Below, piece by piece: positions 787-16,249 of a DNA stretch of 16,249 nucleotides (position 1 is the first letter of the stretch; the number at the start of each line of letters is the position of its first letter). The notes below the pieces were generated by a model. That model saw only the letters and a program-made list of their open reading frames with translations. It did no database searches and was not told the origin of the DNA. This DNA is from Planctomycetota bacterium (GTDB lineage Bacteria; Planctomycetota; Brocadiia; JAJRTI01): positions 1 to 16,249 of the forward strand of contig JAJRTI010000637.1 of assembly GCA_024278415.1 (NCBI GenBank). The letters are read 5' to 3'. The translations under genes were made by a program, and so were the position numbers.

Positions 787-1932
787 ATGCACGTCGTGAT
801 CAACGCACTTGCCGTCGCCGGGAACATGTCAGGCATCGGCCACCACACGCGCAACCTCATCCATGGGTTGGCCCAGGTCGACCGCGACCACCACTATACG
901 CTGCTGGTCCGGCCACGACGAGATCGCGGGAAGCTCGTGGACAGCGACCGCTTCGCCGAGTACGAGGTCCGCGCGTCTCACGCGGGATGGGAGCAGCTTC
1001 AGCTTCCCAGCCTCCTCGATGCACTCGATGCGAACGTGTATCACTCCACGGTGCTGGCCGCGCCGGTCGCGAGCCCCTGTGCGGTCGTGGTGACCGTGCA
1101 CGACGTGATCCCCCGGCTCTTTCCCCATCTGACCCCGCCCGAGTTACGGGAGTACTTCCAGGCGAACGTCACGGCCTCGGTTGCATGCGCGGCGCGGATC
1201 ATCGCGGTCTCCAAGAACACGCAGCGCGACTTGACGCAACTGTACGGCGTGCCAGAGAAGAAGATCAAGGTCGTGTACCAGGCGGCATCGGACCACTTCC
1301 GGCCGCTCAAACCGACGCAGAAGGTCACTGCGCTCACCACCTTGGCTCGTCACGGCATTCGAGGGCGGTACGTGCTGTTCGTGGGCACGGTGGAGCAGCG
1401 CAAGAACGTGCCGGGATTGCTGCAGGCCTTTGCGTCCCTGCCGCAGGGCGCGTCCCCGATCCAACTCGTGGTGGCGGGCGGCACGCACCAGGTGGACTTC
1501 GACTTGCCGGGCTGGATCGACGCGCTCGATTTGGGCCGACGGGTGGTCCTGACCGGCCCCCTGCCCGACGACGCCATGCCCTACCTATACGGCATGGCCG
1601 AGGCGTTCGTGTTCCCGTCGCTGTATGAGGGCTTCGGCCTGCCGGTGCTGGAGGCCATGTCCTGCGGCGTGCCGGTGGTGACTTCGCACACGTCGTCGCT
1701 TCCGGAGATTGCCAAGGACGCAGCCCTGCTGATCAACCCCTACGACCCGGACGACATCGCCCGCGGGTTGGGCCGGGTGCTTCGCGACCGGAACCTTCGG
1801 GAGCGCATGGTCAAGCGCGGGCTGCGCCGGGCCAAGCAGTTCTCCCTGGAGCGCGAGGCCGGCATGACGATCGCGACGTACGAGAGCGCTCTGACCGACA
1901 CCTCCAAGGCCAAGACGGAGACAGACACATGA
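787..1932 (+). CDS. GT4-family glycosyltransferase (first of cluster)
   Basis: 381 residues. A retaining GT-B enzyme expected to move a sugar from a nucleotide-sugar donor to a glycan or lipid-linked acceptor in the cytoplasm; donor and acceptor are unknown. The acceptor half opens with MHVVINAL and the glycine loop GIGHHTRNL. VTVHDVIPRLFP and IAVSKNTQRDL follow. The donor half starts at YVLFVGTVEQRKN, whose R-K-N is the usual phosphate-binding patch, and carries the catalytic E-x7-E as E281 and E289 in [16 protein letters not shown]. Length is typical for the family. I chose ATG 787 because GGGAG at 776-780 sits 6 nt ahead and the family alignment starts there; in-frame codons upstream would add unrelated residues. 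Its stop overlaps the next start by 4 nt (ATGA). No signal peptide or membrane helix is seen. A close paralogue of the products of 1929, 6006 and 8266. Confidence 0.9.
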   Translation: MHVVINALAVAGNMSGIGHHTRNLIHGLAQVDRDHHYTLLVRPRRDRGKLVDSDRFAEYEVRASHAGWEQLQLPSLLDALDANVYHSTVLAAPVASPCAVVVTVHDVIPRLFPHLTPPELREYFQANVTASVACAARIIAVSKNTQRDLTQLYGVPEKKIKVVYQAASDHFRPLKPTQKVTALTTLARHGIRGRYVLFVGTVEQRKNVPGLLQAFASLPQGASPIQLVVAGGTHQVDFDLPGWIDALDLGRRVVLTGPLPDDAMPYLYGMAEAFVFPSLYEGFGLPVLEAMSCGVPVVTSHTSSLPEIAKDAALLINPYDPDDIARGLGRVLRDRNLRERMVKRGLRRAKQFSLEREAGMTIATYESALTDTSKAKTETDT

Positions 1933-3164
1933 GAATCGCTGTGGACGCCCGATCAGTCTTCCCCGGGTGCGGCGGCATCGGCCGTTACACCCAGAACTTG
2001 GCCGCGCACATGCCCGCGCTGTCGCCACAGGACGAGTTTGTCCTGTTCTGCTGCACCGCGAAGGGCGCGATGCGTGTGGCCCAGGCCCCCAACACTCGGG
2101 AGGAGGTCTTCCAGACGGGGATGATGGACGCGATGTGGGAGCAGTTGAGCCTGCCGAACGAACTCGCGCGGGTCGAGGCCGACGCGTACCACTCGCCCAT
2201 GTTCACGCTCCCCGCGGTCACGGCCTGTCCCACGGTCGTGACCATTCACGACGTGGTGTTCGAGACCCATCCGGAGTGGGTGGGCGACAAGCTGTGCAGC
2301 TACCTGAGCAAGTGGTCGCGGTTCGCGGCGCAGACCGCCACTCGGATCGTTACGGTCTCGGAGTTCTCCAAGCAGGAGATCGTGCGCGTGTACGGCGTGG
2401 ATCCCAACCGAGTAGATGTCACGTTGGAGGCCGCAGACCGGCGCTTCTTCCCCATCGAAGAGCGGGATCACGTGGAGCGGGTCGCGGCCAAACACGGGCT
2501 GCCCGAGCAGTGCCTGCTGTACGTGGGTTCCATGGAGACCAAGAAGAACATCGAGAACCTGCTCGTCGCGTTCAAGCGGGCCGTCGACCAGGCAGGCCTG
2601 CCCCACAAGCTCGCGCTCGTGGGCGGCCGCGGGGGACAGGCGCTGGACCTGGACGCGCTCCTCGACCGGCACGGATGTCGGGAGCTGGTCGTGCGGCCCG
2701 GCTACGTGCCCGACGGGGACCTGCCGTTCATCTACAACGCCGCGGAGGCCTTCATCTATCCGTCGTTATACGAGGGGTTCGGCCTGCCGCCGCTGGAGGC
2801 CATGGCCTGCGGCGTCCCGGTCATCAGCTCCAACGCGACCTCGCTGCCAGAGGTGGTCGGCGATGCCGGGGTGCTGGTCGACCCGGAGGACACGGACTCC
2901 ATGGCCGAGGCCATCGCGGGCGTGCTGACTGACGAAGGACAGCGCAGTGACCTCCGACAGAAGGGCCTGACTCGGGCGGCGGAGTTCTCCTGGGAGCAGA
3001 CGGCTCGGCAGACGCTGGACGTGTACCGGCAAGCAGTCGAAGGGGACGACGCTAGCCCCGACCCTCAACCACAGCCTGAGCCGGTCGTGTTGCCGGCCGA
3101 TCCACTCGCCTCGGCAGACGCGGAACCGGAAGGCGAGGAAGCCGATCCAGAGCAACCCGAGTGA
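1929..3164 (+). CDS. GT4-family glycosyltransferase with acidic C-terminal tail
   Basis: 411 residues. Begins [24 protein letters not shown], with the glycine loop of GT4 enzymes, then VTIHDVVFETHPEW and VTVSEFSKQEI. The donor-binding half starts at LLYVGSMETKKN (K-K-N in place of R-K-N) and holds E282 and E290 in [17 protein letters not shown], the E-x7-E pair. The start overlaps the previous stop as ATGA, with GGAG at 1917-1920 eight nucleotides ahead, so the two are probably translationally coupled. The last 40 or so residues, after VYRQAVEGDD, form a Pro/Glu/Asp-rich, probably disordered tail that the sister enzymes lack; it may be a linker or a protein-contact surface. Soluble by sequence. 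The sugar specificity cannot be read from the sequence. Confidence 0.9.
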   Translation: MRIAVDARSVFPGCGGIGRYTQNLAAHMPALSPQDEFVLFCCTAKGAMRVAQAPNTREEVFQTGMMDAMWEQLSLPNELARVEADAYHSPMFTLPAVTACPTVVTIHDVVFETHPEWVGDKLCSYLSKWSRFAAQTATRIVTVSEFSKQEIVRVYGVDPNRVDVTLEAADRRFFPIEERDHVERVAAKHGLPEQCLLYVGSMETKKNIENLLVAFKRAVDQAGLPHKLALVGGRGGQALDLDALLDRHGCRELVVRPGYVPDGDLPFIYNAAEAFIYPSLYEGFGLPPLEAMACGVPVISSNATSLPEVVGDAGVLVDPEDTDSMAEAIAGVLTDEGQRSDLRQKGLTRAAEFSWEQTARQTLDVYRQAVEGDDASPDPQPQPEPVVLPADPLASADAEPEGEEADPEQPE

Positions 3165-3174
3165 ACGCCAAGAC

Positions 3175-3178
3175 GGAG
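3175..3178 (+). promoter_or_regulatory. Ribosome binding site that sets the start at 3188
   Basis: GGAG at 3175-3178 lies 9 nt before ATG 3188. The competing GTG at 3161, which overlaps the upstream stop, has no such site, and its extra nine residues do not match the family. Confidence 0.5.
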
Positions 3179-3187
3179 AACTCCCGC

Positions 3188-4387
3188 ATGAAAGTGCTGC
3201 ACATCTCTTCCGAGTACCCGCCCCAGGAAGTCTTCGGCCTGGGCATGGCCGTCGAGGAGCTGGCCAAGGCCTCCGCGCGGCTGGGGCACGAGGTGCACGT
3301 GGTCACCAACAGCATCCAGGGCAAGGACCAGGACGTGGTGGCGGACTGCGTCCAGGTGCATCGCATCCCGTTCCCGCCGCCGCCCAAGCCTCCGGACGGT
3401 ACGTCCTGCGTGGTGCAGTTTAACGTGGCGGCGCTCGAGACGGCTGTGAAGGCGCTCCGCCGGATTGGCGACGTGGATCTGATCCACGTGCACGACTGGC
3501 TCGTCGTGCTGGCCGGGCGAATGCTCCAGACCATCATCGACCGGCCGCTGGTGCTCACGGTGCACGACACGTCAATGGGCAAGCATTTTGGCAAGCTGGG
3601 CCCGGCCGAGGCGTACGCCGCGGAGCTGGAGCGTTGGGGCTCGCACGACGCGACGAGGGTCATCTGCTGCAGCGACCACGTACGCCGCGAGCTGGCGGGC
3701 GTTTACGAGGTGGCCGAGGACAAGATCGTCATTATCCCCTGCGGCGTGAACCCCGATCGGTTCGCGGTTGAAGTGTACCGAGCCGCGTTCCGCAGCACGT
3801 TCGAAACGCCCGGATCGACGTTCGACAAGTTGGCGCTCTACGTGGGGCGCTTGGATCAGGAGAAGGGCATCGAGGTGCTGCTCGACGCGATGGCGCAGGT
3901 GGTCGAGGCCGGGGTGCGCGCGAAGCTCGTGGTGGCCGGCAAGGGCGCGCGGGAGCGGGATCTGCGCGAGCGCGCGGCCAAGCTGCAGTTGGGCGACGCA
4001 GTCTGCTTTGCCGGGTACTGCGGCGGCTCCGCACTGAGCGCGCTGTTTCAGTGTGCGGACGTGCTCGTGTGCCCCAGCCTGTACGAGCCGTTCGGCATTG
4101 TGGCGCTCGAAGGCATGGTCAACGGCACGCCGGTGATCGTGTCCGATACGGGAGGGCTCAGCGAGATCGTGTGTGACGATGCGGTGGGCATGTGCGTGCC
4201 TCCCGGCGACGCGGCCGCGCTCGCGCAGGCGCTGCAGAAGGTGCTGGGCGACGACGAACTCGCGCAGGGCCTCGGGGCTGCCGGGCAGGCGCGAGCGCGG
4301 GAGGTGTACAGCTGGGACCGCATCGCGGTGGAGACCGTGAACGTGTACGAGCGCGCGATCCACCCTGATACGGTGCTTGAGGACTAA
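3188..4387 (+). CDS. GT4-family glycosyltransferase, glycogen-synthase-like subfamily
   Basis: 399 residues from ATG 3188 (408 if GTG 3161, overlapping the previous stop, is used). It opens MKVLHISSEYPPQEVFGLGM, the N-terminus common to bacterial glycogen-synthase-like and related GT4 enzymes, then has DLIHVHDWLVVLAG and ICCSDHVRREL. The donor half has LYVGRLDQEKGIEVLL, the GR-x5-KG type of nucleotide-sugar patch, and CPSLYEPFGIVALEGM with the catalytic pair E300 and E308. This is a different branch from the 787/1929/6006/8266 group and most like the product of 11034. The gene sits 23 nt after the previous stop and 3 nt before the next start. True glycogen synthase is unlikely because the protein is shorter than the usual 470 or more residues and the cluster holds no other glycogen genes. 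Confidence 0.88.
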   Translation: MKVLHISSEYPPQEVFGLGMAVEELAKASARLGHEVHVVTNSIQGKDQDVVADCVQVHRIPFPPPPKPPDGTSCVVQFNVAALETAVKALRRIGDVDLIHVHDWLVVLAGRMLQTIIDRPLVLTVHDTSMGKHFGKLGPAEAYAAELERWGSHDATRVICCSDHVRRELAGVYEVAEDKIVIIPCGVNPDRFAVEVYRAAFRSTFETPGSTFDKLALYVGRLDQEKGIEVLLDAMAQVVEAGVRAKLVVAGKGARERDLRERAAKLQLGDAVCFAGYCGGSALSALFQCADVLVCPSLYEPFGIVALEGMVNGTPVIVSDTGGLSEIVCDDAVGMCVPPGDAAALAQALQKVLGDDELAQGLGAAGQARAREVYSWDRIAVETVNVYERAIHPDTVLED

Positions 4388-4390: not shown

Positions 4391-5056
4391 ATGAAGATCA
4401 CGGCCGGCATCCGTGTGAAGAACGGCGAGCCCTTCGCGGAGGAGTGCCTTCGCGACCTGAGCGAGTACGTGGACGAGATCGTCGTGTTCGACAACGGGTC
4501 CACGGATCGCACCGTGGACATCTGCCGCGGCTTCAAGAAGGTGAGCGACATCATCGTGTGGGAGCGGAGCTTCTTCCACGAAGGCATGGACCGCAACGTG
4601 GTGGTTGCGATGGCCAAGAACACCAATCCCGACTGGATTCTGCTCCCGGATATCGACGAGGTGTTCGAGGACCGGATGAAGCCGGAGATCCACAGGCTGG
4701 TGAGCCAACAGGAGTTCGTCCTATTCGGCTTCCGGTTCTACCACTTCTGGCGCTCACGCACGCACTACCGCGTGGACGGCAAGTGGGGGGAGGAGATCCA
4801 AAGACATGCCATTGCCCGGCTCGTGCGGAACCAGCCCGGTCTGCACTACCCGGTGGCGCGGCCCTTGGATGGGGCCCAGATCTCGGGCGTGGTGGGCCGG
4901 TGCGCGGTCTCGGATATTCGCGTCAAGCACTACGGCCACCTCCACGCCGATCTGTCACTCCAGAAGTACCACATGTACTCCGCGGCGGACCCCGACCACG
5001 ACTACTCGCACATGATCGACGAGACCGGCCTCGAACTCGAAGAGTGGGTCGAATGA
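4391..5056 (+). CDS. GT2-family (GT-A fold) glycosyltransferase
   Basis: 221 residues. Opens MKITAGIRVKNGEPFAEECL and continues EYVDEIVVFDNGSTDRTVDI, the nucleotide-binding strand and NGSTD turn of GT2 enzymes. LLPDIDEVF supplies the metal-binding DxD as D87 and D89. The C-terminal part (GHLHADLSLQKYHMYSAADP) resembles short soluble GT2 proteins found in glycan clusters. These are normally inverting enzymes that move sugar from UDP-, GDP- or dTDP-donors. There are no membrane helices, unlike polymerising GT2 synthases. The start codon follows the upstream stop by 3 nt and has only a weak GAGG at about 4380, which suggests coupling to the upstream gene. Acceptor unknown. Confidence 0.87.
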   Translation: MKITAGIRVKNGEPFAEECLRDLSEYVDEIVVFDNGSTDRTVDICRGFKKVSDIIVWERSFFHEGMDRNVVVAMAKNTNPDWILLPDIDEVFEDRMKPEIHRLVSQQEFVLFGFRFYHFWRSRTHYRVDGKWGEEIQRHAIARLVRNQPGLHYPVARPLDGAQISGVVGRCAVSDIRVKHYGHLHADLSLQKYHMYSAADPDHDYSHMIDETGLELEEWVE

Positions 5057-5112
5057 CGCGTGACATTCCCATCGCACGCCGGCGCACTTGACCATGCCAG
5101 ACGCCACAACCG

Positions 5113-5117
5113 AAGGA
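5113..5117 (+). promoter_or_regulatory. Ribosome binding site that sets the start at 5127
   Basis: AAGGA at 5113-5117 stands 9 nt before ATG 5127. The upstream in-frame ATG at 5094 has no comparable site and lies outside the conserved domain. Confidence 0.5.
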
Positions 5118-5126
5118 ACGCACATC

Positions 5127-5984
5127 ATGCAGCTTTCGCTAGTCATCCCCGTCTTCAATGGGCTTGAGTATCTGAAGCTCCTGCTGAAGAGCATCGAGCG
5201 CCATTCGTCTCAGGAGCATGAGATCGTCATCTACAGCGATGGCTCCACGGACGGCACGGAGGAGTTTCTTGCCGGTTTGTCCGGCGCGGTGACCGCGCAC
5301 AGCCCGGACAATGACGGCATCTGCACGGCCGTGAATCGAGCCATGGCCATGGCGAGTGGACACGCGCTGTTTCTGCTCAACAGCGACCACGTGCTGGGGC
5401 CCCGATGGGACGTGAACCTCCTGCGCTGGCTGGGCGGGAGCCGGCGTGTGGTGTCGGCCACTTGCATCGAGCCCGGGCTCGTCCCAGTCGCCCCGTTCTT
5501 CATCGCGTACAACTGCGGCCGTACGTGGCAGGACTTCAGTTGGGAGCGGTTCGAGATGGCGGCCACGCGATCGGCCAAGCCCACGGCCCAGCCCGGCGTC
5601 AACCATCCCTTCGCAATCACCAAGGCCCTGTGGGACGAGATTGGCGGCTTGGACGAGCGCTTCAATCCCGGCCCGGCCAGCGACCCTGACCTGTTCTACA
5701 GGCTCACGCTCTCAGGCGCCATCATGATCCGTGCGGACGACGTGGTGCTCTACCACTTCAGCGGCAAGTCCAGTCGCATGGCCGACGAGGCCAAGTCTGA
5801 GCACGCGGTTTGGCGCGGCCACACGGAGCGGTGCAATCGGCTGTTCGTGGCCAAGTGGGGCGAGTACTACGGCCAGACGTTCGGCGAAGTGCCGCAACCG
5901 GGTCCCGTCGCCCAGTCACGGTTCAGAGGTCTCTCGGTCAAGAACAGCGCGGTCGAGTCCGCGCACGCGGAGCCCGTCGCGTAA
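5127..5984 (+). CDS. GT2-family (GT-A fold) glycosyltransferase
   Basis: 285 residues. Opens MQLSLVIPVFNGLEYLKLLL with the IYSDGSTDGTEEF turn, both hallmarks of family GT2. The metal-binding position reads NSDH (N85-S86-D87) where many relatives have DxD. FAITKALWDEIGGLDERFNP and SDPDLFYRL correspond to the acceptor loop and base region, and LYHFSGKSSR to the late His motif. The last 40 or so residues are low-complexity. Expected to add one sugar to a growing glycan in the cytoplasm. The start is chosen by the binding site at 5113-5117 and the family alignment; ATG 5094 would add 11 residues. A 70-nt gap separates it from the previous gene. A UDP-GlcNAc, rhamnose or other donor cannot be decided. 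Confidence 0.87.
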   Translation: MQLSLVIPVFNGLEYLKLLLKSIERHSSQEHEIVIYSDGSTDGTEEFLAGLSGAVTAHSPDNDGICTAVNRAMAMASGHALFLLNSDHVLGPRWDVNLLRWLGGSRRVVSATCIEPGLVPVAPFFIAYNCGRTWQDFSWERFEMAATRSAKPTAQPGVNHPFAITKALWDEIGGLDERFNPGPASDPDLFYRLTLSGAIMIRADDVVLYHFSGKSSRMADEAKSEHAVWRGHTERCNRLFVAKWGEYYGQTFGEVPQPGPVAQSRFRGLSVKNSAVESAHAEPVA

Positions 5985-6005: not shown

Positions 6006-8282
6006 ATGCGCATTGCCATAGACATTCGCTCTGTCGGCCCCGGCATGGACGGTGTGGGCTACTACACCGCGCAACTCGTGCGCGCGCTCGCGCAGGTGGC
6101 CACCGGGCACGAGATCTTCCTCATCACGGCCCAGCCACGGTCGATCGTGCCAGCCGACGCGCCGGTGCCCGTCCACCAGATCGTCACGCCGGTGCGGCTG
6201 GGACAGACGCGCGACGAGCAGCTCCATCTCCCCGCCATCGCCAAGCAGTACGATATCGACGTGTTCCACGGCCCCGGGTTCATGTGCCCGGTCGCGAACC
6301 CCTGCAAGACGGTCGTGACCGTGCACGACCTGATCTACATGATCTACCCGCAATTCTACGAAGCCGACTTCCGCACGCACATGAACCAGTGGGTGGCCGC
6401 GTCCGTCGCGGCCGCGGACCACGTCATCGCGGTGTCCGAATGCACCAAGCGCGACCTCGAGACTCGGCTGCACGCGTCGGCCCAGAAGATCACGGTGACC
6501 CCGGAGGCGGCCGGCGAAGAGTTCAGGCCCGTGGACGGGGCCGAGACCGCCTCCGTTCGGGCCCGATATCGGCTCACTGGCGAGTACGTGCTGGCCGTGG
6601 GCTTGGCTCAGCCGAGGAAGAACATCACGGCCTTGCTCCACGTGTTCAAGGAGTTGTTGGTCAACGGACTGACAGGCTGGCAGTTGGTCGTGGTGGGGGG
6701 ATATCCAGTCGCCTCATGCGTGATTCCTCAACTGGTGCGTGACCTTGGGCTGTCGGAGCACGTCGTGATCGCTGGTTACGTCCCGCGGGACGACTTGCCC
6801 CGGCTCTACAGCGGCGCAGGCCTATTCGTGTTCCCGTCTCTGTACGAGGGCTTTGGCTTGCCCGTCCTCGAAGCCATGGCGTGCGGCGCGCCCGTCATCT
6901 GCTCGAACACCTCATCCTTGCCGGAAGTGGCGGGCGACTCCGCGCTCACGGTGGATCCCACAGACCCGTCGAGCATCCGAGAGGCTGTCTCCAAGTGCAT
7001 TGGCGACCCCGGGTTGCGCGAGGCGTTGAGGGCCAAAGGGCTGGTGCGCGCAAAGCAGTTCACTTGGCGACGCGCGGCCGAGCAAACGCTCAGAGTCTAC
7101 GAGTCGCTAGTCGACACCCTCCGAGAGCCCTGTACCCTGCCGCAGGCGATGGCCGCGCTGCGGACCGTGCCGGCGAACAGCGCCAGCCATATCGGCATTG
7201 TGGCGCCTTGGGACACCGAATGCGGCATTGCCGAGTACTCCCGATTCCTGAGGAACGCGCTGCGCGGCATCGGCTGTGAGGCCGCTGTGCTCGCCGAGCA
7301 ATCGCCGGCGGCCAAGCCCGAACAAGGCGTGCTGCCATGCTGGAGCCGGGGACGTTCCCTTGAAGGGCTGGTCCAGACCGTGTCGAGGGAGCGCATCAAT
7401 GTGGTGCACGTGCAGTTCCACGAGGCGTTCTTCTTCCGCGTGCGGCACTACCAGGACTTCGTTCAGGCTATGGCGAAGATGGGAGTCCGCGTGGTGCTGA
7501 CCGTGCACGAACTCCACGACCGCAGCGATACGGAGTACTTCCGTGGTCCGGTGCACCTGATCGTGCACAACCGGGACTGCTTCAGTTGGCTGCGCGCACG
7601 AGGCGTGTCCTGCCCCATCGAGGTCATTCCCCACGGCATCGTCACGCCGGTGCCCAATGAGCAAACAACCGGCGGGAGCCCGCCCGGAGAACGCGCCCCT
7701 TCCACCGGCCCGCTGCTCATGTCCTGCGGGTTCGTGTTCCCCAAGAAGGGGTACGAGCGCGTCATCATGGCGCTCCCGGAACTCGTCGAGTCCTACCCGG
7801 ACTTACGTTACCAGATCGTCGGCTCCACGGGCGAACCCGGCAGCCTGTCCGCACGGTATCGCGAGATGCTGGCCGGCATGGCCCAGGAGCTTGGCGTCGA
7901 GACGTACGTCTGTTTCCAGGAGGAGTACGCGGACCTGCCGCCGCTTCAGGCTGCGCTGAGCAGAGCCGACGCAGCCGTGTTCCCCTACGCCGACTCTACA
8001 CAGGGCGCGAGCGGCGCGGTCCAGATCGCACTGGGCGCCGGCGCGACGGTTGTGGCGTCGGACGCTCCCTTCTTCGCCGACCTGGGGAGCGCAGTGCTCC
8101 GCTTCCGCACCGACGAGGAACTCGTCCAGGCCATCCGCACCGCGCTGGAGCCGGGAGACGCGCGCGTCGCCGTCCTCCGGCAAGCCCAGGCCTTGGTCGC
8201 CGAGCGATGCTGGCCCAAGGTCGCACAACAGCACGCTGCGCTCTACGCGCAACTAGGACGTCGCCATGAGAATCGCCGTTGA
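6006..8282 (+). CDS. Two-domain glycosyltransferase (GT4-GT4 fusion)
   Basis: 758 residues, about twice the family length. Domain 1 (1-365) opens MRIAIDIRSVGPGMDGVGYY, has VTVHDLIYMIYP, AVGLAQPRKN and the catalytic pair E281/E289 in [17 protein letters not shown], so it should be active. Domain 2 (about 395-758) opens IGIVAPWDTECGIAEYSRFL, a start seen in GT4 proteins, then INVVHVQFHEAFF, VVLTVHELHD and PLLMSCGFVFPKKG. In place of E-x7-E it reads TQGASGAVQIALGAG, a form seen in a GT4 subgroup, so its activity is less certain. A fusion would let two transfers occur in sequence on one acceptor. The GGAG-type site (5987-5990) is 15 nt ahead of the ATG, longer than usual. The 3' end overlaps the next gene by 17 nt. 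Confidence 0.88.
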   Translation: MRIAIDIRSVGPGMDGVGYYTAQLVRALAQVATGHEIFLITAQPRSIVPADAPVPVHQIVTPVRLGQTRDEQLHLPAIAKQYDIDVFHGPGFMCPVANPCKTVVTVHDLIYMIYPQFYEADFRTHMNQWVAASVAAADHVIAVSECTKRDLETRLHASAQKITVTPEAAGEEFRPVDGAETASVRARYRLTGEYVLAVGLAQPRKNITALLHVFKELLVNGLTGWQLVVVGGYPVASCVIPQLVRDLGLSEHVVIAGYVPRDDLPRLYSGAGLFVFPSLYEGFGLPVLEAMACGAPVICSNTSSLPEVAGDSALTVDPTDPSSIREAVSKCIGDPGLREALRAKGLVRAKQFTWRRAAEQTLRVYESLVDTLREPCTLPQAMAALRTVPANSASHIGIVAPWDTECGIAEYSRFLRNALRGIGCEAAVLAEQSPAAKPEQGVLPCWSRGRSLEGLVQTVSRERINVVHVQFHEAFFFRVRHYQDFVQAMAKMGVRVVLTVHELHDRSDTEYFRGPVHLIVHNRDCFSWLRARGVSCPIEVIPHGIVTPVPNEQTTGGSPPGERAPSTGPLLMSCGFVFPKKGYERVIMALPELVESYPDLRYQIVGSTGEPGSLSARYREMLAGMAQELGVETYVCFQEEYADLPPLQAALSRADAAVFPYADSTQGASGAVQIALGAGATVVASDAPFFADLGSAVLRFRTDEELVQAIRTALEPGDARVAVLRQAQALVAERCWPKVAQQHAALYAQLGRRHENRR

Positions 8283-9477
8283 TGCCCGACTGGTCCACAC
8301 GCTGAAGGCCGGCAGCGGCCACTACTGCTGCAATCTGCTCCGGGCGCTTGGCGAAGCGGACGACCGGAACGAGTACGTCCTCTTCACGGGCCCGGCCTAT
8401 GAGCAGCCGCCAGTGGTTGACCGGCCGGACTTCCTGGAAGTCCGTTCGCCGCGGGCCACGCTCATGAGCCCCAACTGGGAGCAGTTCGAGCTGCCGCGCG
8501 TGCTCGCTGTGCACGCAGCAGACTTGCTGCTCTCCTTCACACTCGTGCTCCCCCTGCTCTGTCCCGTGCCTACCGTGACCGTCCTCTACGACATTGGGTT
8601 CGAACTCTTCCCAGAGTTCTACGCTCCAGGCCTCAGGGACTACCTGCGGGCCTGGGTGCCGGCGTCGCTCCACGCGGCCACCCGCATCGTGGCCATCTCG
8701 GAAGCGACGCGACGCGACGCGGTGGCCCTGTACGACCAGGGCCAGCCAGACTGCGAGCCCATCGCCGGGCGCACGCAGGTGGTCTACCCGGCCGTGTCGG
8801 AATCGTTCCGACCAGCCGTGGACCCCGAACAAGCCCGGTCCACAGCCAAACGTTACGGTCTGACCGGCCCGTACGCGTTGACGGTGTGCAGCCTGGAGAG
8901 GAACAAGAATCTCCCCCGGGTGATCGAGGCGTTCGCGGGACTCAGGGTCCGTGCACCAGAGAGCGACCTTTCCCTCGCGCTGGTCGGTCGGCCGGGTCCT
9001 GCACTGGGCGAGATCCAGCGGCTGACAGGCAAGCACGGCCTCAATGGGCGAGTCGTCGTGACGGGGTACGTGCCGGACAAAGACCTGCCCGCGCTGTACC
9101 AGTGTGCGGAGATGTTCGTGTTCCCATCGCTCTACGAGGGGTTTGGACTGCCGCCGCTCGAAGCCATGTCGTGCGGAACTCCGGTGATCGTGTCCGACCG
9201 CGCGTCGCTGCCCGAGGTCGTGGGCGAAGCCGGCATGCTAGTGGACCTCGAATCGCCTGATGCGATCGCGGGCGCGATGCAACGTCTGCTTCAGGAGCCT
9301 GACCTGCGTTCCGAACTGAGCCGACGCGGCCTGGAGCAGGCGCAGCGCTTCTCATGGCGCACGACGGCCGAACAGTTCCTCGGCCTCATGGAACGAGTGC
9401 AATCGGAGCGACGGGAGGCGCGCGCAGGCGCTGCCCCCAAGCCTGCACGCTCTCCTCAGACACAGGAGTCACAGTGA
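8266..9477 (+). CDS. GT4-family glycosyltransferase
   Basis: 403 residues. Opens [20 protein letters not shown], then [16 protein letters not shown], where the usual His-Asp of this loop is Tyr-Asp, and [11 protein letters not shown]. The donor half has [19 protein letters not shown] and the catalytic pair E291/E299 in [19 protein letters not shown]. It resembles the products of 787, 1929 and the first domain of 6006. The start lies 17 nt inside the end of the previous gene, with AGGA at 8255-8258 seven nucleotides upstream. Its TGA (9475-9477) shares one base with the ATG of the radical SAM gene. The final 30 residues are charged and Pro/Ala-rich. The loop substitution may alter acceptor choice; donor unknown. 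Confidence 0.9.
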
Positions 9478-10946
9478 TGATCAAGAGACTGAACCCGGAC
9501 ACACGCGTGCGGCAGAAACGGGCTCCAGCCGAGCCTGACGTCCACGTCGTGGAGGCGCTTGGCAAGCACTTCGCCTATGACAGCAACTCCATGGCGGCGT
9601 TCGAGGTCGACCCCAGCACTGCTGACCTTGTCCGAGAGGGCGACTATGGCGAGTTGGGCTCCGACTTTGGCGTGGCCTGGCGCCCTCATTTCAACCTGCT
9701 TTCCAAGCCGAAGGTCCGGCACTTAGTCCTGGAGGCGACGCATGCCTGCAACCTGGCCTGCCGCTACTGCTTCGTGCGCAACTACTACGACGACCAGTCA
9801 GGCCACATGTCGTTCGAGACCGCCTATCACGCGATCAACGCGCTGCTGTTGGCCAGCCCCACGAGCCTAAACGTGGGCTTCTTCGGCGGCGAGGCGCTGC
9901 TCAACTTCAAGCTGATCGAGCAAGTAGTCACGTATGTGGAGGAACTTGTCAGCGAGGTGTACGTGCCGTGCAAGTTCAGCATGACCACGAACGCCACGCT
10001 CATGACGGCCGAGATCGCCCAGTTCCTCGACAGCCACGCCTTCTCGCTCATTGTGTCGCTGGACGGAGACGAGGAGACGCACAACCACATGCGACCCACC
10101 TGCCGGCAGGGCTTCAACAGCCATGCCATGACCATGGCCGGGCTGCAGCATCTCAAGGGCTTGCCCATCGCGCGGCGCCTGACGCTGCGTTCGACCTTCA
10201 CGGGACTGAGCGCGCAGCTCGTGGAGCGACTCGAGTACCTGAACAACCTGATCGAGCAGGGGATCGGTTCGCACGCGTCGGTCGAGCCGTGTAGCCTCAA
10301 CGAGTCGGCCTGCATTAACCTGCCAGACGGCCACCCGCTGAGCATCACGACTGAGAAGGCGCAGGCCCTCAATTCCGAGTACGCCGAGGCCGCCCAGTGG
10401 CTCGTGGACCGTGTGCGCAACGGGAGGCCAGCCCGGTTCCACCACTTCTACAAGATGGTCGAGCGCTTGCTGTGGGGCATTGTGTCGCCCACCGAGTGTG
10501 GCGCCGGCATGGGCTACGCGGCCGTGGGGCCAGACGGCACGATCTACGCCTGCCACCGGGAAGGCGCCTCGGCAATTGGCAGCCTCGATGCCGGCATTGA
10601 CGAGGCGTCGCGCTCGAAGTGGGCCGACAATCGCTGGTGCCAGCGCGAGCGATGCCCGGAGTGTTGGCTCCGGCACGTGTGTGGCGGCGGGTGCAGGCTG
10701 GACTCACTGGACCGATACGGCGACATCCGGTGCCCCGACGAGGCCGCCTGTGTCTTCAAGTCGCACTGGATCAAGTATGCCATGTGGATCATGTCGGAGT
10801 TGACCCTCGATCAGCTCAAGGCGTACGCGCCCTGTCCGCGCGGCCGGCGTAAGCAATCAGAGCCGCGAAGGCCCGATCGGTGCCCCAAGTGTGGCAGGAA
10901 GCCTGGCCGGCCCACAGCGCAGCCTGCTGAGGAAGCAGACCCCTAG
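9477..10946 (+). CDS. Radical SAM/SPASM maturase-like enzyme with RRE-like N-terminus
   Basis: 489 residues. C91, C95 and C98 (ACNLACRYC) bind the SAM-cleaving 4Fe-4S cluster, and GGE at 137-139 is the SAM amino-group motif. The C-terminal SPASM region has C341-x17-C359 (with PDGTIYAC) then C393-x2-C396-x5-C402-x3-C406-x12-C419, plus C425: the full ligand pattern for two auxiliary clusters. Residues 20-65 (HVVEALGKHFAYDSNSMAAF) resemble the peptide-recognition start of SCIFF/CteB- and QhpD-type maturases (resemblance only). A tail after residue 445 holds C453 and a CPKCG knuckle (C469, C472). Such enzymes make thioether or other cross-links in peptides; some SPASM-type relatives oxidise sugars. 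ATG 9477 overlaps the previous stop by one base and AGGAG (9464-9468) is 8 nt ahead. Substrate unknown; the class is certain, the chemistry is not. Confidence 0.92.
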   Translation: MIKRLNPDTRVRQKRAPAEPDVHVVEALGKHFAYDSNSMAAFEVDPSTADLVREGDYGELGSDFGVAWRPHFNLLSKPKVRHLVLEATHACNLACRYCFVRNYYDDQSGHMSFETAYHAINALLLASPTSLNVGFFGGEALLNFKLIEQVVTYVEELVSEVYVPCKFSMTTNATLMTAEIAQFLDSHAFSLIVSLDGDEETHNHMRPTCRQGFNSHAMTMAGLQHLKGLPIARRLTLRSTFTGLSAQLVERLEYLNNLIEQGIGSHASVEPCSLNESACINLPDGHPLSITTEKAQALNSEYAEAAQWLVDRVRNGRPARFHHFYKMVERLLWGIVSPTECGAGMGYAAVGPDGTIYACHREGASAIGSLDAGIDEASRSKWADNRWCQRERCPECWLRHVCGGGCRLDSLDRYGDIRCPDEAACVFKSHWIKYAMWIMSELTLDQLKAYAPCPRGRRKQSEPRRPDRCPKCGRKPGRPTAQPAEEADP

Positions 10947-11033: not shown

Positions 11034-12311
11034 ATGAAGATTCTCGTCATCACCCCTGAATACCCCCCCGACGAACACTACGTCATCGGCCGGTGGGCTC
11101 GGGGCCTCAGCACGGCTCTGGCCGAGCGCGGGCACGAGGCCCACGTGCTCGTGCCGAGGAATCCCAGCGCTGCCCCCCAAGGGAACTCCGCGGACGGGGT
11201 CACGGTCCACGAACTGCCTGTCACCGTCCCGGTTCGCGGCCACATCTGGGTCGCGGACGTGATCCAGCAGAACGTGGGCCTGCTAGCGGAGGGGGTCCGG
11301 GCTCTCATGGCCTCGGAGGACTTCGACGTCGTCCACGCGCATGGGTGGCAGGGAGCGCTGGCCGCGAGCGCGGTCAAGCAGGTAGGCGGCATGCCCTTCG
11401 TCCTGAGCCTGCACGACTGCGAGCGCGTGAAGGCTGGCGGCCAGATGGCGGCGGACCAAGCCTACATCGCTGAGATGGAGGCCTGGGCCGGCGAACAGGC
11501 CGACGTGGTCCTGTGCGACAGCCACGCGCTCAAGCACATGCTTGTGACCGAGGCCGGCCTGCCGCACGAGAAGCTGCACGTGATTCCGCCTGGCGTGGCC
11601 ATTGAGGACGGACCGGCCGACAGCAACGTCGAACTCTTCCGGCACCACATCTTCGCGGCGCCGGACCAGAAGCTCGTGGCGTTCGTGGGCCGGCTGACCC
11701 CAAGCAAGCGTGTCGATGTCCTGCTCGAGGCCGCGCAGCGCCTGTTGCCCGTGTACCCGCAGGTCCGCTTCGCGGTGGCAGGAGGCGGGCCGCTGCTGGA
11801 CGGACTCCGCGGGCAAGTCGCACAGCGCCGGCTGGAGCGACACGTCATCTTCACCGAGTACATCACAGGCGACGTTCTGAACTGCCTCTACAGGGCCGCG
11901 GATCTCGTGGTTTGTCCGGGGATCCATGAGCCCAGCGGCATGGTGGCGCTGGAGGCCATGGCGCATCACACGCCGGTGATTGCATCGGCCCCCGGCGTGC
12001 ATGCAGAACTCATCGAGCCGTGGCGGACCGGCGTCCTCGTGCCCCCTGGCGAGCCCAATGCGCTGGCCCAGGCCATCGTGCGCCTGCTGTATCTGGAGGA
12101 TGAGGCCAATACCATGGCGGACAACGCCCATGAGCACGTGGCGCAGCGGTTCTCCTGGATGGACACCGCGGAGACGGTGGCGCGCGTCTACGAGCGACTG
12201 ACATCCGGGCCGCAATCCAACGCTTCAGTGGAGCCAGCGGCTCGGCCTCAGGCCAAGGTGACGTCCCTGGCTGCCTACCGTGCCCAATCCGAATCGGCCG
12301 CGGGAAGTTGA
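11034..12311 (+). CDS. GT4-family glycosyltransferase, glycogen-synthase-like subfamily
   Basis: 425 residues. Opens MKILVITPEYPPDEHYVIGR with WARGLSTALAERGHEAHVLV, then FDVVHAHGWQGALAAS and VLSLHDCER. The donor half has AFVGRLTPSKRVDVLLEAA and CPGIHEPSGMVALEAM, with E299 and E307 as the E-x7-E pair. It groups with the product of 3188 by its start, its EP(F/S)G motif and its GRL patch. I chose ATG 11034 from the family start; the Shine-Dalgarno signal is weak (GAGTGG at 11024-11029). A TTG at 10965 is open in frame, but the added residues look non-coding and cover the hairpin. The last 40 residues are a low-complexity tail. It sits between the radical SAM gene and the cysteine desulfurase gene, so the glycan genes flank the radical SAM gene on both sides. 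Confidence 0.88.
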   Translation: MKILVITPEYPPDEHYVIGRWARGLSTALAERGHEAHVLVPRNPSAAPQGNSADGVTVHELPVTVPVRGHIWVADVIQQNVGLLAEGVRALMASEDFDVVHAHGWQGALAASAVKQVGGMPFVLSLHDCERVKAGGQMAADQAYIAEMEAWAGEQADVVLCDSHALKHMLVTEAGLPHEKLHVIPPGVAIEDGPADSNVELFRHHIFAAPDQKLVAFVGRLTPSKRVDVLLEAAQRLLPVYPQVRFAVAGGGPLLDGLRGQVAQRRLERHVIFTEYITGDVLNCLYRAADLVVCPGIHEPSGMVALEAMAHHTPVIASAPGVHAELIEPWRTGVLVPPGEPNALAQAIVRLLYLEDEANTMADNAHEHVAQRFSWMDTAETVARVYERLTSGPQSNASVEPAARPQAKVTSLAAYRAQSESAAGS

Positions 12312-12327
12312 TCGACCCGGCGTGCCA

Positions 12328-12405: not shown

Positions 12406-13563
12406 ATGACGAGCACTGAGACCGTGTGCTACCTGGATCACGCCGCCACCACGCCGGTGGACATGGAAGTCCTCCAGGCCATGCTGCCGTGGTTCTCCGT
12501 CTACTACGGCAACGCGGCAAGCCACCATACATTGGGCGAGCGCAGCAACGAAGCCGTCGAGGCCGGCCGGCACAAGGTCGCCGAGTTGATCGGCGCAACA
12601 CCCGGAGAGGTCTACTTCACCAGCGGAGGAACCGAAGCCGACAACTGGGCGATCCTCGGCGCGGCCATGGCGCGACGGGATCGGGGCAATCACGTCATCA
12701 CGTCCTCCATCGAGCACCACGCAGTGCTGCATGCCTGCCAGCACCTCGAGGACATCGAGTTCGACGTCACGTACTTGCCGGTCGATCAGTGGGGGGGAGT
12801 GTCCGTTGATGCACTCCGTGACGCGATGACCGAGCAGACCATCCTTGTGTCGGTCATGCACGCCAACAACGAAGTTGGGACGATTCAGCCGGTCGAGGCC
12901 ATTGGTCAGCTTGCGCAGGAAGCCGGCGTGCTCTTCCACGTCGACGCGGTCCAGACGGCCGGCAAGATTCCAGTGGACGCGTCTTCCATCCACTGTGACT
13001 TGCTCTCGGTCTCGGCCCACAAGTTCAACGGGCCCAAGGGCGTGGGCGCGCTGTTCGTTCGTGAAGGGGTCGAGGTCCGCCCGATCCTGCACGGCGGCGA
13101 GCAAGAGAACGGCATGCGGCCTGGAACCCACAACGTGCCTGGCATCGTGGGCATGGGCAAGGCCGCCGAACTCGCGGCGTCGCGGATGCAGGGGGCAGCC
13201 CAGCATCTCGCAGGCCTCCGTGACTGCTTGGAGGACGCCATTGCCAAGCGGGTGCCAGACGTGAGCATCAACGGCCATCCGTGCGACAGGCTGCCCGGAC
13301 ATCTGAGCATCTGTGTCGCGGACGCAGACGCCGAGTCCCTCATCCTCGCGCTCAGCCTTCGAGGCATCTGCGTATCGAGCGGATCGGCGTGCACCTCCGG
13401 CAGCCTCGAACCGTCGCACGTGCTCACGGCCATGGGCGTGCCCGCGGCGCAAGCGCTCGGCGCGCTGCGCTTCACTCTTGGCCACGAGAACACCCACGAG
13501 GACATCGACCGCGTGCTCCGCGAACTGCCCCAGGTCGTCGCCAACCTCCGACGTACGCGATAG
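12406..13563 (+). CDS. Cysteine desulfurase, NifS/IscS family (PLP-dependent)
   Basis: 385 residues, close to the family norm but without the longer C-terminus of E. coli IscS. It converts L-cysteine to alanine and passes sulfur as a persulfide for Fe-S assembly. YLDHAATTPVDMEVL opens the fold; TSGGTEADN binds the PLP phosphate; H104 in SIEHHAVLHA matches the PLP-stacking His; K206 in SAHKFNGPKG carries PLP; C329 in SSGSACTSGSLEPSHVL is the persulfide cysteine, and the loop has group I NifS/IscS character. ATG 12406 is preceded by GGGAGAGG (12393-12400); ATG 12391 and 12352 are in frame but would extend a non-conserved end. The scaffold gene follows by 32 nt. Its place behind a three-cluster radical SAM enzyme suggests a dedicated sulfur supply; a housekeeping role is also possible. 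Confidence 0.93.
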   Translation: MTSTETVCYLDHAATTPVDMEVLQAMLPWFSVYYGNAASHHTLGERSNEAVEAGRHKVAELIGATPGEVYFTSGGTEADNWAILGAAMARRDRGNHVITSSIEHHAVLHACQHLEDIEFDVTYLPVDQWGGVSVDALRDAMTEQTILVSVMHANNEVGTIQPVEAIGQLAQEAGVLFHVDAVQTAGKIPVDASSIHCDLLSVSAHKFNGPKGVGALFVREGVEVRPILHGGEQENGMRPGTHNVPGIVGMGKAAELAASRMQGAAQHLAGLRDCLEDAIAKRVPDVSINGHPCDRLPGHLSICVADADAESLILALSLRGICVSSGSACTSGSLEPSHVLTAMGVPAAQALGALRFTLGHENTHEDIDRVLRELPQVVANLRRTR

Positions 13564-13595: not shown

Positions 13596-14003
13596 ATGGC
13601 CGGGTACAGCGACACAGCCATCGACCACTTCGAGCACCCCCGCAACGTCGGCGAAGTGCCGGACGCCGACGGCGTCGGTCTCGAGGGCGTCGAAGGCCAG
13701 GGCAACTTCATGCAGATCACCATCAAGGTCGAGTCGGGCCGGCTCATGGACGTGCGCTTCCGCACGTATTCGTGCCCGGCCGCGCGCGCGTCCGGCAGTG
13801 CGGTCACCGTTCTGGCCAAGGGCAAGGCCGTCGAAGATGCCCGGACCATCTGCGGACATGACATTCAGGCGTTTCTCGGCAAGCTGCCGTTGGGCAAAGA
13901 GAAAGCTGTGAACATGGCCTGCGCGGCGTTGGCCTGTGCGATCGAGGATTGTGAAGACCGAAGGCACAAGGATAATGGACCAAGAGGCGCGCCACGTGAG
14001 TGA
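13596..14003 (+). CDS. IscU/NifU N-terminal-like Fe-S scaffold, lacking the first Cys and Asp
   Basis: 135 residues, the length of IscU. Opens AIDHFEHPRNVGEVPDADGV, the classic IscU/NifU start, then NFMQITIKVESGRLMDVRF and TYSCPAARASGSAVTVLAKG. Canonical IscU holds its nascent 2Fe-2S cluster on three Cys and uses a CGD motif; by my alignment the CGD position reads Q35-G36-N37, so the first Cys and the Asp are missing. C60 and C109 (NMACAALACAIED) fit the second and third ligand positions, and C86, C114 and C119 are extra. It could use the extra Cys, belong to a divergent scaffold branch that partners a NifS-type enzyme, or act as a carrier. No Shine-Dalgarno is seen at ATG 13596, but no other in-frame start fits, so coupling to the desulfurase gene 32 nt upstream is likely. 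Confidence 0.88.
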   Translation: MAGYSDTAIDHFEHPRNVGEVPDADGVGLEGVEGQGNFMQITIKVESGRLMDVRFRTYSCPAARASGSAVTVLAKGKAVEDARTICGHDIQAFLGKLPLGKEKAVNMACAALACAIEDCEDRRHKDNGPRGAPRE

Positions 14004-14396: not shown

Positions 14397-15026
14397 ATGT
14401 CGCGTATCATCCAACCCAGTCTGATGTGGCCCACTCGAGATCCCATTGCGCTGGTGCGCGCGGGGTACCGCGGTCAGGACGAGTCCAACCAGAGCGACGC
14501 GGTGTGCAGGCCCAGGTGCATCCCTGTTGGCTATGCAAGCTGCCCGGCAAGTGACATTGCCGAAGGGCACAACATCTCCCACTGCTACTTCGACATCATC
14601 TATAGAGAATGGGATCCCGGCCAGCCCGGCGAACCGGGCGGGCCGCCCGCGTTGCCGCCGAGGTACTGCCTCGAGGTTGAGTTCGTTGTCTGCGCGGTCG
14701 ATCCGTGGAAGCCGCATACGCCTGTCCAACTCAAGTGCAACTCTGAGGATTCCGGTGCGTGGCCATTCCCAGAGGCCGACTATCCCGACGGGCTCAACTT
14801 CGGCGAATGGGAGCAGGGCAAGATCAAGTATAGCCCACCCACGCAGTTCGAGGAGGGAGGTGTCTGTGAAGATTGGATTCATCCTGAGATGTTCGTGCCT
14901 GACATTATGGAAAAGGGGGTTGTTATCTACAGGTTTCCCGACCGGTTCGAGGTCGCAACGTACTTCGAGATCTACGACAAAGAGACAAAAACTTGGAGGC
15001 CCCTGGGCACCTATCGGTTCTCGTGA
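14397..15026 (+). CDS. Hypothetical Cys-rich protein, 209 aa
   Basis: I do not recognise this protein. It has eight Cys (37, 41, 49, 63, 91, 99, 114, 157), many Asp, Glu, Trp and Pro, and a Gly/Pro run near 74-88 (PGQPGEPGGPPALPP). The C-terminal third (VVIYRFPDRFEVATYFEIYD) looks like beta structure. No signal peptide, membrane segment or lipobox is visible. The start is well set: AAGGAGA at 14383-14389 is 7 nt before ATG 14397. Third-position G/C is clearly above random yet lower than in the glycan genes, which could mean a separate origin. It lies between the Fe-S assembly pair and an RHS gene, so it may partner the RHS protein or be a substrate of the radical SAM enzyme; both are inference. 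It is probably a real gene. Confidence 0.7.
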   Translation: MSRIIQPSLMWPTRDPIALVRAGYRGQDESNQSDAVCRPRCIPVGYASCPASDIAEGHNISHCYFDIIYREWDPGQPGEPGGPPALPPRYCLEVEFVVCAVDPWKPHTPVQLKCNSEDSGAWPFPEADYPDGLNFGEWEQGKIKYSPPTQFEEGGVCEDWIHPEMFVPDIMEKGVVIYRFPDRFEVATYFEIYDKETKTWRPLGTYRFS

Positions 15027-15337: not shown

Positions 15338-16249
15338 GTGAACGACGCCACATGCAACACCTGCTCCCGCCCCTACATCAATCCTGCCGGCGGCTATCTG
15401 ACCCTCATGCTGGGCCACGACCTGCCCGTCAAGGGCGGCTCATTGCCCATGAAGCTCTTCTACAGCAGCCGGGATCGCTCACCGATCGACGGCAACGCCT
15501 CAAGCATGTTAGGCAGGCGCTGGGCCGCGCCGTTCACCCGACGGGTCGCGACGCACGAGTTGGACGACCCAGACTCGGGCGAGCGTAACTTCGCCCTGCT
15601 CGTGAACGCGTCCGTGGGCTTCCGCACGTACGAGTACGACTCCTCCCAAGAGGCGTTCCTCAAGCCCCCCAGCGGGTACAACGAAGTGGCATGGGACGAC
15701 TACGACCCCGATCTCATGATCGAGACCCAGGACGAGGGCGGCTACACCCACTACCGCCACGATCCCTACGACGTGTACGCGTTCGACGCCCGACTCGAGG
15801 CCGACGTGGATCGCAACGGGAACGTCGTGTACTACCACTACGATGACGAGGACCGGCTGATGCAGGTCGAGGATCCCTCCGGCCGCATCGCCTACTTCGG
15901 GTACAACGCACAGGACAAGATCGCGTCCATCACCAACTGGGCTGGCCGGACCACGTACCTGGCCTACGACGGGGCCGACAACATGGACACCGTCGTGGGG
16001 CCCGAGCGCTGCGTCACGTACTTCCACTACAACGCGGACAGCCGCATCACGACCATGATCGACCCTGAGGGCTACGTGAGCTACTTCAACTACGGCGACA
16101 ACGGCCGCGTCGTGGAACACCTGGAGCCCAACGGCGCGTCCACGTACTACGAGCAAGACGCGGGACGCACCTTCGCCCACGCGCCGGATGGCGGCATCAC
16201 GTACTTCGAGTTCGGTGTGCTGGATCCCGGGCCCCGGCTCATCACCGAC
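15338..16249 (+). CDS. RHS/YD-repeat protein, N-terminal part (runs off window)
   Basis: 304 codons from GTG 15338 to the window end with no stop. Residues 10-75 (INPAGGYLTLMLGHDLPV, then LPMKLFYSSRDRS and GRRWAAPF) follow the DUF6531-type opening of RHS proteins, which normally reads as a sequence on a polymorphic beta-cage. From about residue 157 come YD-type repeats: NGNVVYYHYDDEDRLMQVED, RTTYLAYDGADNMDTVVG, CVTYFHYNADSRITTMIDPE, YVSYFNYGDNGRVVEHLEPN. RHS proteins usually build a large shell enclosing a C-terminal toxin or effector, or act as surface/adhesion proteins. The start has a CNTC motif and no signal peptide or PAAR domain is seen in this part. The C-terminal effector, if any, lies outside the window. 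Third-position G/C matches the genome. Confident in family, not in role. Confidence 0.9.
   Translation, partial: MNDATCNTCSRPYINPAGGYLTLMLGHDLPVKGGSLPMKLFYSSRDRSPIDGNASSMLGRRWAAPFTRRVATHELDDPDSGERNFALLVNASVGFRTYEYDSSQEAFLKPPSGYNEVAWDDYDPDLMIETQDEGGYTHYRHDPYDVYAFDARLEADVDRNGNVVYYHYDDEDRLMQVEDPSGRIAYFGYNAQDKIASITNWAGRTTYLAYDGADNMDTVVGPERCVTYFHYNADSRITTMIDPEGYVSYFNYGDNGRVVEHLEPNGASTYYEQDAGRTFAHAPDGGITYFEFGVLDPGPRLITD

Follow-up and report, generated by a model that had tools for sequence, protein, structure and literature searches.

Why does a radical S-adenosylmethionine (SAM) enzyme lie inside a run of glycosyltransferase (GT) genes, and what does it act upon? This question is raised by a contig of 16,249 nt from a Planctomycetota bacterium (JAJRTI010000637.1, hereafter the window, meaning the whole stretch analysed), in which a SPASM-type radical SAM gene of 489 codons sits between two GT4 genes. 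The explanation that we prefer, with about an even chance of being right (roughly 0.5), is that the gene product is a ranthipeptide-like protein maturase of phage ancestry, which works beside GTs and became lodged in a planctomycete glycan/RHS island. The starting points of this reading are observed gene content, cysteine ligands, predicted fold, the clade to which the enzyme belongs, a cysteine repeat and the co-occurrence of these elements.

The radical SAM enzyme and its relatives

The initial annotation had described a one-base overlap with a GT4 gene, a second GT4 gene 87 nt downstream, a run of eight GT genes and intact cluster ligands, and all of these proved correct. The overlap is the sequence TGATG at 9475-9479, which holds the stop codon of GT4e (TGA, 9475-9477) and the start codon of the enzyme (ATG, 9477-9479); the stop of the enzyme (TAG, 10944-10946) is followed by the ATG of GT4f at 11034. 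Pfam GT domains were found in all eight GT proteins (8/8), six of them GT4-type (Glycos_transf_1) and two GT2-type. Seven of these genes (ca. 787-9477) precede the radical SAM gene and the eighth (GT4f) follows it, and the close gene spacing continues through the NifS and NifU-like genes. The three cysteines of the CxxxCxxC motif and the seven SPASM cysteines, which we take to be the ligands of two auxiliary clusters, were invariant in an alignment of 56 sequences (A1). With this motif, these seven cysteines and the Radical_SAM fold (PF04055, 42.9 bits, above the cut-off of 29.5), the enzyme belongs to the SPASM superfamily. The G+C content at its third codon positions (GC3) is 0.85, inside the range of the neighbouring genes.

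The enzyme scored below every cut-off of the 25 listed NCBIfam models. Its top score was with TIGR03906 (QhpD; 190 bits vs a cut-off of 453), and it scored below this with NF047865 (PapB; 188.8 vs 340), TIGR03974 (SCIFF maturase; 182.6 vs 425), TIGR04148 and TIGR04157 (glyco_rSAM_CFB; 94.5 vs 300 and 117 vs 400 bits, respectively) and TIGR04115 (CXXX-repeat peptide maturase; 58.3 vs 350). An AlphaFold2 model (mean predicted local distance difference test score, 90.5) had the thioether maturase CteB (PDB 5wgg) as its closest solved structure, and the phage family phrog_1802 matched the enzyme at 118 bits. The initial annotation had left the target as either a peptide or protein or a glycan; the models and the CteB fold favoured the former, and the reading as a BtrN-type sugar dehydrogenase was provisionally set aside on the fold ranks.

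A search of 5.8 billion proteins gave 419 relatives, the best 120 of which (P0001-P0120) were used. P0002-P0023 were 46-53% identical to the window enzyme, and among them only P0022 was assigned to a named organism (Candidatus Brocadiia). When two DNA collections were scanned, the closest relatives turned up in viral contigs (IMG/VR), in which 187 of 376 pattern matches encoded relatives; the best 80 of the 187 were kept. A clade of 31 viral loci (L081-L110 and L139; tblastn E ≤ 4e-46, the next locus being at 4e-33) was delimited by E-value before the neighbourhoods were read, and four loci from Planctomycetota genomes (L001, L196, L197 and L198) brought the set to 35; L199 was left out as the same locus as L001. 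Genes in the loci were called mechanically as the longest open reading frames (ORFs).

In a maximum-likelihood tree, built by a quick method without bootstrap and weaker at its deeper forks, the window enzyme nested in an unnamed group of 31 rows (approximate likelihood-ratio support, SH-aLRT, 99; a 23-row group, 98) as the sister of 22 rows that included the phage locus L081. The phage-type locus L091 fell within the same 31-row group, the remaining members of which came without readable context. From P0001-P0120, the tree omits P0031, P0043, P0044, P0048 and P0070 by name and four by length; it also omits L086, L087, L089, L094, L109 and L139 (duplicates or fragments) and L108 (no usable ORF), and two unrelated long rows (L107_0 and L081_3) stayed in it, joined near the root. 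An intein-like domain is inserted in the CxxxCxxC region of P0044, and precomputed Pfam results indicated intein-like domains in P0048 and P0070 as well.

The readable clade relatives lie mainly in tail modules of tailed phages. A PHROG scan of 12 of the 35 loci matched portal, major head, head-tail adaptor, tape measure, baseplate or other tail proteins in 10; no structural match was found for L081 (two proteins scanned) or L139 (one protein). Shared gene clusters extend the phage context to further clade loci. Among annotated phage records, 65 matched the window enzyme, with a best identity of 32% among the 20 listed.

Cellular relatives were sparse. A single-protein scan of 84,980 genomes found no relative of the window enzyme, and among the best 80 loci of an A1 scan of the same genomes, which were mostly background Firmicutes enzymes, only L001 rose above background; the limit to the best 80 means that cellular clade members are under-sampled. 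In a draw of 392 Planctomycetota genomes, with four candidates scored per genome, 31 passed 1e-50, and clade-like scores were confined to G001, G095, G242 and G127 (two pieces). Searches at class level returned two of 29 genomes at 1e-75 (G095 and G242, both already known) and three of 75 at 1e-40 (G001, already known, and G154, at 30% identity, and G407, both outside the clade). Further genome searches were empty (0/6, and 0/397 with four candidates per genome; without a positive control, the latter carries no weight).

Cysteine-repeat proteins beside the clade enzymes

The usual upstream neighbour of the clade enzymes was a protein with highly regular cysteines. Of 34 loci (L108 left out), 28 had a cysteine-rich ORF upstream of the enzyme gene and in the same orientation; it lay within three genes in 22 and directly adjacent in 12. 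Across 34 repeat proteins, with the duplicates L086, L087, L094 and L199 excluded, successive cysteines were exactly four positions apart in 1158 of 1795 cases. The residue after the cysteine was Glu in 736 and Gln in 501 of the 1640 cysteines in repeat context, and Ser or Thr stood at +2 or +3 of 880. When a repeat was defined as at least five C-x(3,4) units with Glu or Gln after at least three of the cysteines, this C[EQ]xx repeat was present at 25 of the 35 clade loci, 9 of 49 other viral radical SAM loci and none of 79 bacterial loci; after grouping at 80% identity (34 of the 35 loci used), it was present in 21 of 29 clade groups. In L085 the repeat shares its chain with a Tail_P2_I domain (43.4 bits), and weaker gpJ-like matches (≤27.6 bits) are joined to repeats in L001 and L091. 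None of the repeat models of Pfam or NCBIfam matched the repeats of those proteins that were scanned. In L081, a second radical SAM/SPASM-like gene (3482-4606) lies between the cysteine-repeat gene and the clade enzyme.

The association was also recovered from the repeat alone. The pattern C-E-x-x-C-E-T-G-C-E occurred in 17 stretches on 16 contigs, at least 10 of which hold a radical SAM gene. Seven of the 16 were already in the viral radical SAM set; among the nine new contigs, Radical_SAM was above the cut-off in three (including one that clearly belongs to the clade, at 500 bits), weak in two and lacking in four, two of which (G430 and G435) end inside the repeat with the following gene out of view.

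Several side observations concern phages with such proteins. One concerns L128 (11128-12831) and L203 (6115-8894): much of the length of the L128 repeat protein is shared with Hoc-like proteins of Faecalibacterium phages and with a protein of phage nd12 whose gene adjoins what we take, from its YMDD motif, to be a reverse transcriptase gene, so that the repeat may be attached to a receptor-binding end that is diversified. No cysteine repeat was seen in the five nd12 proteins read. Phage Phass-1 encodes a radical SAM enzyme of its own, annotated as two pieces, and has one short cysteine-rich stretch.

Glycosyltransferase partners

A GT often lay directly downstream of the clade enzyme. Profiles built from 20 GT9 and 14 GT2 genes of the clade matched 27 of 35 (GT9) and 14 of 35 (GT2) clade loci, but neither matched any of the 49 other viral or 79 bacterial control loci; only the control figures are independent, because the profiles were made from clade genes. 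By 80%-identity groups, GT9-type genes were present in 22 of 29 and GT2-type genes in 11 of 29. Compared as a profile with the PDB (five hits), the phage GT9s are related to lipopolysaccharide heptosyltransferases, and they have a four-cysteine cluster near the C-terminus, of which three cysteines are invariant in 16 sequences and the fourth is kept in most. The interpretation given in the initial annotation was partly supported. GT9 and GT2 genes accompany the enzyme in the clade; the GT4 array of the window was seen elsewhere, in the loci read, without it.

A planctomycete island without the enzyme

A search for GT4d of the window among the 392 Planctomycetota genomes (two candidates scored in each) gave a strong match in one (G052, locus L207). 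This locus encodes relatives of GT4a, GT4b, GT4c, GT4d and GT4f in the order of the window, the GT4d relative being part of a 1424-aa protein that combines GT4 and GT2 domains; no radical SAM gene was found among this GT run. A NifU-like gene and the start of an RHS-type protein lie on the opposite strand. The RHS assignment in L207 and L241 rests on mutual likeness and motifs read by eye, with no Pfam match.

With the NifU-like protein of L207 as query, 163 of the 392 genomes matched at 1e-8, many of them presumably with ordinary NifU, and ten regions around the best matches were examined. NifU/IscU scaffolds hold their cluster with three cysteines, one of which belongs to a CGD motif. In the window, L207, L241, L244, L245, L246 and L248, this motif is replaced by [Q/R]G[P/N][Y/F], and all seven genes adjoin GT genes; L242, L243, L247, L249 and L250 keep CGD and have no such GT genes in the stretch read. 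The window protein has QGN for CGD and lacks HC near its C-terminus, and hence does not have the ligand set of a NifU/IscU scaffold. The six CGD-less loci outside the window came from three genomes (G052, G325 and G228), and the GTs of G228 are unlike the window array; the module of GT4 array, NifU-like protein and RHS protein was thus seen in two of these genomes and in a looser form in the third. In the window, L207, L241, L244 and L246, the NifU-like gene occurs together with RHS-type genes; the order GT4 array, NifU-like, RHS-type was also found in L241 and L244, a looser set in L246, and GT genes with a NifU-like gene in L245 and L248. The N-terminal parts of all five RHS-type proteins hold cysteines, many in L207, L244 and L246 and few in the window. 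Between the NifU-like and RHS genes, L246 (8575-11707) has three consecutive proteins with a similar four-cysteine N-terminus, one of them a GT2, and L244 (10500-11558) has a Fic-domain protein.

No clade enzyme was present in the island loci read. The best radical SAM match in the whole of G052 reached 61.5 bits, none passed 1e-75 in G325, and no clade enzyme was seen among the 4 of 15 candidates scored in G228. The window thus joins two things, a planctomycete GT/NifU-like/RHS island and an enzyme whose readable relatives sit with phage tail proteins.

Interpretation and alternatives

We infer the substrate, the bond type, the glycosylation target, the phage ancestry and the events in the window genome as follows. 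The three-cluster SPASM enzyme would act on a ribosomally made protein and introduce radical cross-links at cysteines, most likely thioethers from Cys sulfur to carbon of the ranthipeptide kind. In the clade, the substrate would be the long (Cys-[Glu/Gln]-x-small)n repeats, several of which are joined to tail protein I or gpJ-like tips, and the neighbouring GT (usually GT9, sometimes also GT2) probably decorates the same repeat protein, in which about half of the units offer Ser or Thr. The product could then be a stapled, glycosylated shaft in the phage tail. Glu or Gln after most repeat cysteines is suggestive of Cys-carboxylate-type links, and our guess is that Glu would be joined to the cysteine that follows three positions later. 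In the planctomycete, the enzyme may have entered, or been kept in, an island of GT4 genes, NifS, a NifU-like gene and an RHS protein, where candidate substrates are a repeat protein beyond the contig, the RHS protein and the 209-aa protein. A fuller proposal is that (Cys-[Glu/Gln]-x-x)n shafts, as part of the adsorption apparatus of tailed phages, are radical-stapled and GT9-glycosylated, and that the planctomycete reuses this chemistry on its own RHS fibre, in an island whose GT array and CGD-less NifU-like protein would serve the RHS protein; we put it forward only tentatively, as less likely than not.

Several findings weigh against the preferred reading. The nine repeat-bearing viral loci outside the clade show that the link is not clade-exclusive, and in each of the eight that were read (L116, L119, L128, L131, L138, L141, L151 and L160) the repeat gene adjoins a different radical SAM enzyme; because of this, the partnership of repeat and enzyme may extend beyond the clade. 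Judged by their contig names, L119, L128 and L151 look to us like isolate genomes. Conversely, 10 of the 35 clade loci fail the repeat rule. Among these, the contigs of L084 and L197 break off close to the enzyme, L093 duplicates the repeat-bearing L139 in a shorter form, and L092, L102, L104 and L108 have cysteine-rich ORFs that miss the rule; no cysteine repeat was seen in L101, L105 and L106, an absence that is weak for L106 and others because their contigs are short. In the window itself, no C[EQ]xx repeat was found in six frames of this 16-kb contig, a length that cannot decide whether a repeat gene lies beyond its ends. No phage structural match was obtained for six window proteins against PHROG, the other eight being GTs by Pfam; NifS and the NifU-like protein matched PHROG families, none structural. 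As NifS, GT4d and the 209-aa protein also had no relative in viral contigs (by a pattern method that detects close relatives only), a phage origin of the window contig itself is unsupported, though conceivable. In addition, the window GTs are GT4 and GT2, whereas those of the clade are GT9; the repeat cysteines that precede Gln (501 of 1640) face no carboxylate; and PapB chemistry does not fit directly, because position +4 is usually the next Cys and not Asp.

An alternative is that the GT4/NifU-like/RHS island has taken over the enzyme, which would modify a protein encoded there, such as the RHS or 209-aa protein; the GT array would then glycosylate this protein, and sulfur or clusters would come from NifS and the NifU-like protein. 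The overlap with GT4e, the close spacing through NifS and NifU-like, the recurrence of the island order in L241 and L244 with partial sets in L245, L248, L246 and L207, and the cysteines in the five RHS-type N-terminal parts are consistent with such a takeover, but in the loci read the enzyme is missing from the island (none was seen in G052 or G325, with G228 partly scored) and the window proteins contain no regular cysteine repeat; on balance, we consider it rather unlikely. The same enzyme-free islands, together with the chiefly phage-borne occurrence of readable clade members, would suit a radical SAM gene that was acquired as a cassette, from a phage for instance, and stands among the GTs by accident, with no function in common with them. 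Ten intact cluster ligands, a GC3 within the neighbours' range, a start codon overlapping the upstream stop and the association of the clade with GTs elsewhere argue against this, and the chance that it holds seems similarly low.

A different view of the repeat itself is that it forms a metal- or Fe-S-carrying or disulfide-locked shaft, with the enzyme performing epimerisation, cyclophane formation or formylglycine-type oxidation. SPASM enzymes are chemically diverse, the repeats are dense in thiols, and NifS and NifU-like genes stand near the window enzyme; against this, NifS was matched at none of the 35 clade loci, and the closest models and fold are those of thioether or peptide maturases, which makes this view improbable. 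A sugar-modifying enzyme (BtrN- or DesII-like) of a glycan pathway, to which the GT neighbours alone point, is the least credible possibility and can be given very little weight.

Gene layout of the window

Coordinates are collected in Table 1. The gene cut by the contig start is presumably RmlA, as judged from a motif; its 46-aa piece had no PHROG or Pfam match. The nearest relative of GT4d in the protein search was P0242 (58%), and its best organism-named match was P0244 of Candidatus Brocadiaceae (34% identity, 48% of the query covered), which fits a planctomycete source without proving one. For GT4f, the mechanical ORF list begins at TTG 10965, upstream of the in-frame ATG. Four of the best 120 relatives of NifS were 63-66% identical and the others <60%. 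The 209-aa protein had no PHROG or Pfam match, and the longer frame had no NCBIfam match. The RHS protein has three cysteines, two of them near the N-terminus. Scans by consensus showed the + strand to be free of terminator-like sites from 736 to 14003; this is weak evidence, because the six terminator-like sites and one promoter-like site of the whole window were matched in number by shuffles.

Table 1. Features of the window, with CGD-less NifU-like genes of other loci (aa, amino acids)
Feature	Positions	Strand	Basis or remark
RmlA (glucose-1-phosphate thymidylyltransferase), probable C-terminal end, 46 aa	2..142	+	Cut by contig start; read from sequence
GT4a glycosyltransferase	787..1932	+	Glycos_transf_1 130 bits; ORF listed from 736, ATG 787 likelier
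GT4b glycosyltransferase	1929..3164	+	Glycos_transf_1 119 bits; 42% identity to L207 4442-5536
GT4c glycosyltransferase	3161..4387	+	Glycos_transf_1 151 bits; 46% identity to L207 5582-6766
GT2a glycosyltransferase	4391..5056	+	Glycos_transf_2 42.5 bits
GT2b glycosyltransferase	5088..5984	+	Glycos_transf_2 61.8 bits
GT4d, 758-aa double GT4 protein	6006..8282	+	Two Glycos_transf_1 stretches
GT4e glycosyltransferase	8266..9477	+	Glycos_transf_1 122 bits; stop overlaps radical SAM start
SPASM radical SAM enzyme, 489 aa	9477..10946	+	Radical_SAM 42.9 bits
CxxxCxxC motif (C91, C95, C98)	9747..9770	+	Invariant in A1, 56 sequences
Seven SPASM cysteines (C341, C359, C393, C396, C402, C406, C425)	10497..10751	+	Invariant in A1, 56 sequences
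GT4f glycosyltransferase	11034..12311	+	Glycos_transf_1 129 bits
NifS-type cysteine desulfurase	12406..13563	+	TIGR03402 FeS_nifS 532.2 bits, just over cut-off 530.75; phrog_12787 467 bits
NifU-like protein, degenerate (CGD-less) type	13596..14003	+	PF01592 94.4 bits; phrog_8429 69 bits; alignment
Uncharacterised 209-aa protein, 8 cysteines	14397..15026	+	Sequence read
RHS/YD-repeat protein, GTG start	15338..16249	+	Cut by contig end; PF05593 RHS_repeat 51.2 bits
CGD-less NifU-like, L207	894-1247		
CGD-less NifU-like, L241	16152-16502		
CGD-less NifU-like, L244	7825-8373		
CGD-less NifU-like, L245	6886-7428		
CGD-less NifU-like, L246	8199-8588		
CGD-less NifU-like, L248	1282-1824		

Significance and comparison with known systems

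So far, radical SAM peptide maturases have been associated with small natural products and with a handful of enzyme subunits. If the pairing in phages is true, radical cross-linking would extend to large structural fibres, and the repeat protein would to our knowledge be the first radical-matured virion protein. A literature search outside most subscription journals and bioRxiv found no article that combines radical SAM enzymes with a CXXX repeat, with cysteine-rich phage tail fibers or with thioethers in phage tails. The pairing could explain the radical SAM genes of some phage genomes, which two articles discuss as metabolic genes (PMC2853527, PMC5332604), and it suggests a hitherto undescribed route by which fibre proteins are toughened and decorated chemically. 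Substrate, enzyme and GT lie side by side and thus form a concrete set for expression and measurement.

For the GTs, the nearest precedent is TibC, a heptosyltransferase that glycosylates an adhesin (PMC4358343). Like TibC, the phage GT9s have a C-terminal four-cysteine cluster, but the spacing differs from that of TibC (Cys339, 342, 358 and 370; PMC4358343), and TibC was absent from the five PDB hits of the phage GT9 profile. An identity of the phage GT9s with TibC was thus not upheld, and the likeness is a lead only. For the enzyme, the names of TIGR04148 and TIGR04157 hint at a radical peptide maturase that is linked with a GT4 gene, and that of the CXXX-repeat maturase TIGR04115 implies a four-residue cysteine repeat as target; the window enzyme misses the cut-offs of the former two and is far below that of the latter. 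CteB, the SCIFF maturase, shares the fold, but the window enzyme missed the TIGR03974 cut-off and has GTs as neighbours, and the clade enzymes lie next to phage tail genes. PapB makes Cys-Asp links, and in a variant also Cys-Glu links, and needs the motif Cys-X3-Asp (PMC8172795). Thioethers between Cys and carboxylate residues in a repeated motif are the likeness to the proposed chemistry (PMC8172795), whereas the clade repeat usually has the next Cys at +4 and the PapB cut-off was missed. QhpD joins Cys sulfur to methylene carbons of Glu or Asp on a protein (PMC8172795). The window enzyme falls short of the QhpD cut-off and has no amine dehydrogenase among the identified window genes, but QhpD resembles the proposed maturase in acting on a protein, and it is with the QhpD model that the window enzyme scores highest.

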